A stretch of DNA of 49,145 nt from positions 1-49,145 of the forward strand of contig JASHRG010000020.1 of assembly GCA_030037495.1 (NCBI GenBank). The letters are read 5' to 3'. The notes under the pieces are model-generated. The model was not told the DNA's origin and made no database searches. It was given only the letters and a program-made list of their open reading frames with translations. Made by a program: the position numbers and the translations under genes. The first letter of the stretch is position 1; each line of letters opens with the position of its first letter. Origin of the DNA: Microcaldota archaeon (GTDB lineage Archaea; Micrarchaeota; Micrarchaeia; Micrarchaeales; Micrarchaeaceae). Positions 6,821 to 7,618 of the stretch are shown piece after piece.

Positions 6821-7513
6821 TTATCTCTTCTTGAAGTTCCTTGCGCTGACGCTTATCATGTGATGTTCAGAATCGTAGCCAAGCGCGCTCTTGAAGGTGT
6901 CAGGGTCAAGCTCAACCGTGCTGTCAGAATAAGGGTCATTTACGTATATGGTGTCCTTGTCATAACCCTTCACAACAACCCAGTGTGGCTGCGGCTCTGC
7001 GCCTGGATTTAGCGCATTTAGGTTGACAAGCACTATGGGTATCCTTCCCTGGTTTATCTGCTTCTTTATAGTGTTTACTGTAGTAACTCCGTACTGTTCC
7101 TTTACGTTATATTCATGGGTCTTCTTCTTTATCTCATCAAACGCAGAGGTCAGCGTTTCAAGGTTTATGCCCTCATAGACTGCAAGCTTCTTTTCGTAGC
7201 CAGCATCCTTCACGTTGCTGAATATCTGCGGAGATGCACCCCTCTTTGCCAACGCATAAGCTATTCCGTACCTTGATCCGTGCCAGACGCTGCCCCCTAT
7301 CGCATCCATGTAGATTGCCTCCTTTTCGTCCTTTGTGAGCTTGAAATGCTTGTTCAGGTACTTGAGCACCATCATTATGCTGGCTGCGCTGCTCATGAAC
7401 TCGTACTCCTGCCCATACACTGGAACCTCAAAGAGTTTTGACTCTTTGAGCTTTGGTCTGGAAGGTCTTGGAGATCTCTTCGCCTTCATTCTCTTCTGCT
7501 TCTTCATAAACAT
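6821..7513 (-). CDS. C39-like peptidase-fold protein, possibly catalytically inactive
   Basis: MSSAASIMMVLKYL (position of CGPAS) and PHWVVVKGYDKDTIYVNDPYSD; ATG 7513 or 7507 preferred over the TTG inside the tRNA. Confidence 0.7.
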   Translation of the reverse strand: MFMKKQKRMKAKRSPRPSRPKLKESKLFEVPVYGQEYEFMSSAASIMMVLKYLNKHFKLTKDEKEAIYMDAIGGSVWHGSRYGIAYALAKRGASPQIFSNVKDAGYEKKLAVYEGINLETLTSAFDEIKKKTHEYNVKEQYGVTTVNTIKKQINQGRIPIVLVNLNALNPGAEPQPHWVVVKGYDKDTIYVNDPYSDSTVELDPDTFKSALGYDSEHHMISVSARNFKKR

Positions 7514-7521
7514 CACATTAT

Positions 7522-7618
7522 GCAGGGAGGGAGATTTGTTCAATGGTTTTGAACTCCCGCAGGCCTAAGCCAACAGATCTTGAGTCTGCCGCGTTTGACC
7601 AAGCTCCGCCATCCCTGC
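7522..7618 (-). tRNA. tRNA-Leu(CAA) with ~13-nt insertion/intron in the T-loop
   Basis: Acceptor GCAGGGA/TCCCTGC, anticodon GCAGA-CTCAAGA-TCTGT, long variable arm, T-stem GGGAG/CTCCC enclosing a 20-nt loop. Confidence 0.85.

Follow-up and report, generated by a model that had tools for sequence, protein, structure and literature searches.

The tRNA introns of ARMAN-1 and ARMAN-2 are reportedly processed by the epsilon-2 splicing endonuclease (EndA), in work said to be that of Fujishima in 2011 and Hirata in 2012. Archaeal tRNA introns at noncanonical positions, with bulge-helix-bulge (BHB) or relaxed (hBH, HBh', BHL) motifs, have been reviewed (PMC4090602, PMC6379350), and T-arm and T-loop introns and relaxed motifs have been published as a class (PMC12397907, PMC6379350, PMC4090602). 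The T-arm positions named in one of these reviews are 53/54, 56/57 and 59/60, in a list that closes with 'etc.', and the same review describes introns at 25/26, 37/38 and 56/57 in tRNA-Pro(UGG) of Pyrobaculum islandicum (PMC4090602).

The locus described here is a tRNA-Leu(CAA) gene with 13 extra nucleotides in its T-loop. Based on sequence comparison, we put at roughly 0.95 the probability that proteins splice these out as an archaeal tRNA intron at the noncanonical position 58/59. Such an intron would share with other noncanonical archaeal introns a short length (median 12-25 nt), a place in a tRNA loop, a central helix of exon with intron, predicted cut sites in 3-nt bulges and a splicing endonuclease, but PMC4090602 does not name 58/59 among its examples and the insert is kept here across almost a whole order. 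The P. islandicum tRNA-Pro(UGG) gene likewise has a noncanonical T-loop intron, while its position, isotype and lineage differ. The ARMAN-1 and ARMAN-2 introns with their epsilon-2 EndA (Miyata 2025, PMC12397907) come from the same phylum, and the EndA encoded here is homologous over its full length, with the ARMAN-specific loop residues kept. No published description of a 58/59 intron in tRNA-Leu(CAA) was found in the literature searched, which did not cover Fujishima 2011. In our view this intron adds a new, well-supported case to a known archaeal type.

The interrupted tRNA-Leu(CAA) gene

A preliminary description of this locus had reported a tRNA-Leu(CAA) with intact acceptor stem, anticodon, class II variable arm and T-stem and a T-loop of 20 nt; direct reading gave all of these elements, with exactly the same coordinates (Table 1). 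The other four leucine tRNAs of the genome (UAG, CAG, GAG and UAA) all have the T-loop TTCAAAT. A second, intact tRNA-Leu(CAA) gene, which had been named as a possible objection to an intron, was sought across the 870-kb genome (44 contigs, 93% complete), including hidden copies, and none was found.

When ARAGORN and Rfam (at the gathering score) were run on the window, the whole 49,145-nt stretch analysed, only Ala, Thr and Gln tRNAs were reported and tRNA-Leu(CAA) was missed. With relaxed thresholds, the Rfam tRNA model scored 18.9 bits (cut-off, 29) and misplaced the 3' half. In a set of 67 interrupted sequences, ARAGORN recognised none of the genes with the insert present and identified all 67 as tRNA-Leu(caa) with the insert removed. 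The stems remain paired across relatives: changes in the anticodon stem and at T-stem pairs 1 and 2 are compensatory.

Table 1. Features of the tRNA-Leu(CAA) locus (positions within the window)
Feature	Position	Strand	Remarks
tRNA-Leu(CAA) gene, T-loop interrupted	7522..7618	minus	97 nt without discriminator base (A at 7521); direct reading; ARAGORN calls the spliced form tRNA-Leu(caa) and does not recognise the unspliced form
Acceptor stem, perfect	GCAGGGA 7618-7612 / TCCCTGC 7528-7522	minus	direct reading
Anticodon CAA	7580..7582	minus	direct reading
T-stem, perfect	GGGAG 7558-7554 / CTCCC 7533-7529	minus	direct reading
T-loop TTCAAAACCATTGAACAAAT		minus	20 nt instead of 7; direct reading
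Predicted 13-nt intron AACCATTGAACAA, between positions 58 and 59	7536..7548	minus	only junction fitting all 120 distinct orthologous T-arms
5' exon, ending ...GTTCAA (A58)	7549..7618	minus	
3' exon, starting A59 U60 CUCCC	7522..7535	minus	
Predicted central helix H, 5' strand, G53 U54 U55 C56 (exon)	7551..7554	minus	pairs with intron -6..-3 in 120/120
Predicted central helix H, 3' strand, GAAC (intron -6..-3)	7538..7541	minus	variants GGAC, GAGC, GAAU and GGGC in relatives pair too
Predicted 5' bulge AA^A (A57 A58 ^ +1), 5' splice site	7548..7550	minus	in terminal loop here; register predicted for this gene, as in the strict BHB of L169 and L224
Predicted 3' bulge AA^A (-2 -1 ^ A59), 3' splice site	7535..7537	minus	intron -2,-1 = AA in 113/120
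Predicted outer helix h', 5' strand, G49-A52	7555..7558, with 7534-7531 (U60-C63)	minus	slipped T-stem register
C39-peptidase-like protein gene, directly downstream of the tRNA	6824..7510	minus	Pfam DUF3335 / Peptidase_C39_2

Predicted splice junction and motif

Because AAA is repeated, the cut site is hidden in any single sequence, and the preliminary description, which had correctly proposed that removal of 13 nt restores TTCAAAT, had left the junction ambiguous. Comparison of 120 distinct interrupted T-arms, all from the same Micrarchaeota order, fixes it. Variants with TTCAAT... rule out later 5' sites, those with ...CACAT and ...CATAT rule out earlier 3' sites, and only TTCAA^...^AT, that is 58/59, produces TTCAAAT in every case; the intron of the present gene is therefore AACCATTGAACAA (7548-7536). 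The inserts are 10-21 nt in length (mode 13), and their length and middle vary, the latter being near random in sequence, while their ends are fixed. Archaeal tRNA introns are published as spanning 11-129 nt (PMC4090602), so the shortest insert (10 nt, in genome G057) lies slightly under the stated minimum.

A BHB-type intron with its true cut sites elsewhere is very improbable. Both 56/57 and 59/60 are published positions (PMC4090602) and the AAA repeat makes several junctions equivalent in one sequence, but with TTCAAAT as the mature loop 56/57 fails in 7 of the 120 T-arms and 59/60 in 34, whereas 58/59 fails in none. Positions that differ from species to species would be possible but less simple.

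With the junction at 58/59, a 4-bp central helix between the 5' exon and the 3' part of the intron is found at the expected offset in 120/120 T-arms, compared with 0-1 of 119-120 for slid controls and about 2% for shuffled introns (67-sequence set). Intron positions -6 to -3 read GAAC in 89 T-arms, GGAC in 12, GAGC in 10, GAAU in eight and GGGC in one, all of which pair with G53-U54-U55-C56; as the T-loop strand is not free to vary, this evidence comes from one side only. The TTCAA/TTGAA pairing noted in the preliminary description is present in this sequence, but it was dropped as the key element, as relatives conserve only GUUC/GAAC, a 4-bp helix that starts one base earlier.

As modelled, 5'-GUUC-AA^N ... 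GAAC-AA^A would have bulge-helix-bulge geometry: a helix of 4 bp flanked by bulges of 3 nt. The form with two 3-nt bulges, a strict BHB, would involve a slipped outer helix of positions 49-52 with 60-63, all four pairs of which are possible in 118/120 T-arms. Folding energies do not prefer this helix over the normal T-stem for GGGAG/CUCCC arms: an ordinary T-stem with a 5-nt bulge is favoured in many copies, including the present gene, where the slipped register is not the energy minimum. One GAGAG/CUCUC arm (L095) adopts the slipped helix unprompted. A stable inner helix is absent from most Micrarchaeota tRNA-Leu(CAA) copies, which makes relaxed BHL or HBh' a fairer label for the motif than strict BHB. 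Single-sequence folding alone left the motif unsettled, the lowest-energy fold being a near-normal T-stem with GUUCAA paired to UUGAAC.

Distribution of the insert and other introns

The comparison with relatives that had been suggested for this gene placed the insert in nearly all of them. A search with the 97-nt gene gave a match in 58 of 60 relatives, nearly all with an insert in the corresponding loop, and named records sharing the T-arm were mostly from Candidatus Micrarchaeota. With a pattern catching both interrupted and uninterrupted genes, the sequence could be read in 138 genomes belonging to two families of the same order; by hand count, 130 are interrupted and eight are uninterrupted with a normal 7-nt T-loop. 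Three more genomes, read outside the 138, are likewise interrupted. Five of the uninterrupted genomes are species of a single genus, within which G039 carries the insert. Two more each come from a genus whose other readable members are interrupted (G005, G018), and the last is a singleton genus (G102). In other families of the class, tRNA-Leu(CAA) genes have normal loops, with the exception of one doubly interrupted gene (L229). The simplest history suggested by this distribution would be a single gain at the base of the order, with at least three or four exact losses since then. One pattern match (G177) is not a tRNA and was set aside as chance. Genome G009 has two different tRNA-Leu(CAA) genes (C18:14354-14450, L093; C32:1662-1760, L048), one of which resembles that of the other family; the second was not counted as a paralogue, as it is probably on a contaminating contig from another family.

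The same-strand downstream neighbour is a C39-peptidase-like gene in 100/100 loci with a match (L046-L075, L105-L184), usually within about 120 nt, which supports orthology of the tRNA locus. In the one locus lacking a match, the sequence ends 5 nt past the tRNA. This arrangement suggests that a tRNA-mRNA cotranscript may have been kept across the order.

Inserts at 58/59 were also identified in other tRNA genes, with isotypes assigned by eye from the anticodon loops. A scan of named records found them in five Thorarchaeota tRNA-Pro(UGG) genes (L127, L143, L161, L169 and L181), which carry an anticodon-loop intron in addition, and in a Micrarchaeota tRNA-Thr(UGU) gene (L118); three further matches (L115, L125 and L134) are not tRNAs and were set aside as chance. 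When a pattern based on the commonest T-stem was applied to 302 genomes, all six matches were tRNA T-arms, compared with one match for the reversed control pattern. These genes (L224-L229), which come from other Micrarchaeota, are Ile(UAU), Leu(GAG), Ser(GCU), two Thr(CGU) and a Leu(CAA) with an additional anticodon-loop intron. In L169, an inner helix (CAAUAGGG/CCCUAUUG) gives a strict bulge-helix-bulge in exactly the same register, and the Micrarchaeota Ile(UAU) gene L224 similarly forms a strict BHB in this register.

The genome of the present gene has further introns at 37/38, for example in the Tyr, Ser(UGA) and Trp tRNA genes. Its tRNA-Leu(UAA) gene (L040, G000:C20, approximately 64.1 kb) has a D-loop insert of about 20 nt near AATGGCATCTATTGCCACGG and is a candidate for another noncanonical intron. 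Three 3' tRNA-gene fragments lie near intact genes: L043 (G000:C15:31333) by Arg(CCU), L044 (G000:C2:29613) by Ser(GCU) and L041 (G000:C33:379) by Ala(GGC). Small integrated elements may have left these as scars of their attachment sites.

Splicing endonuclease, proposed excision and significance

The ARMAN-type (epsilon2) endA to which the preliminary description had pointed is present in the same genome (G000:C20). It encodes a protein of 383 aa, residues 5-383 of which align to residues 8-387 of the ARMAN-2 epsilon-2 enzyme (4fz2; structures 4fz2/9w2k) with an E-value of 4.5e-165, so that the three-unit architecture is matched over its whole length. In the alignment, counted by hand, it keeps the ARMAN-specific loop residues Tyr160-Lys161 and the catalytic residues Tyr236, His251 and Lys282 (roles of Y160, K161, Y236, H251 and K282 from PMC12397907). 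The ARMAN-2 enzyme cuts BHB and BHL substrates in vitro (PMC12397907). A full-length homologue was found in 10/10 other Micrarchaeota genomes tested, including four without the tRNA-Leu(CAA) intron; in two Thorarchaeota genomes, the match extends over only about 150 residues, in short EndA frames.

The noncanonical intron of about 13 nt put forward in the preliminary description is supported by the 120 distinct T-arms, by intronless orthologues having 7-nt loops and by this EndA homologue. We infer that the insert is almost certainly removed by the tRNA-splicing enzyme. In the precursor, G53-U54-U55-C56 of the T-loop would pair with GAAC near the 3' end of the intron, with the outer helix perhaps in the slipped register. 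The 5' cut would then fall in a bulge AA^N, here part of the terminal loop, and the 3' cut in a bulge AA^A, as in a relaxed bulge-helix-bulge or bulge-helix-loop. The three-unit EndA would then cut both sites, and a tRNA ligase would join A58 to A59 to restore TTCAAAT.

It is very unlikely that the mature tRNA instead keeps the insert, its T-loop being enlarged and either tolerated or functional in its own right. A retained insert could form a hairpin that stacks on the T-stem, but its length and middle drift freely, with only the GUUC-complementary part and flanking AA kept, and orthologues lacking it have an exact 7-nt loop. It would also conflict with the T-loop itself, which is near-universal and required for the D/T-loop elbow. 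A pseudogene or assembly error, to which the failure of standard tRNA finders might point, can hardly be credited for a single-copy gene that is the sole tRNA-Leu(CAA) of its genome, has orthologues in about 130 other genomes with the insert at the equivalent place and with intact, compensated stems, and shares its downstream gene with every locus where one was matched.

Read as a spliced intron, the insert extends the known class in three ways: it is retained order-wide, its position is resolved, and introns recur at 58/59. This recurrence suggests that GUUCAA of the near-universal T-loop is a prefabricated half of a splice motif, so that any insert ending in GAACAA before A59 would be cuttable. 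Position 58/59 would then be a general landing site, with repeated origins across isotypes and phyla and near-fixation in one order; we hold this proposal to have an even chance of being correct. A similar idea, in which introns relocate to sites able to form the motif, has been published (PMC4090602).

In practical terms, tRNA-Leu(CAA) can be called missing in these genomes by ARAGORN or Rfam-style searches. A single noncanonical intron has been kept through nearly a whole archaeal order (130/138 genomes), which offers more than 100 natural minimal substrates (introns of 10-21 nt) for the ARMAN-type endonuclease, an enzyme of broad specificity so far tested on few RNAs. Finally, because introns recur at 58/59, a simple hypothesis of where tRNA introns land can be tested directly.
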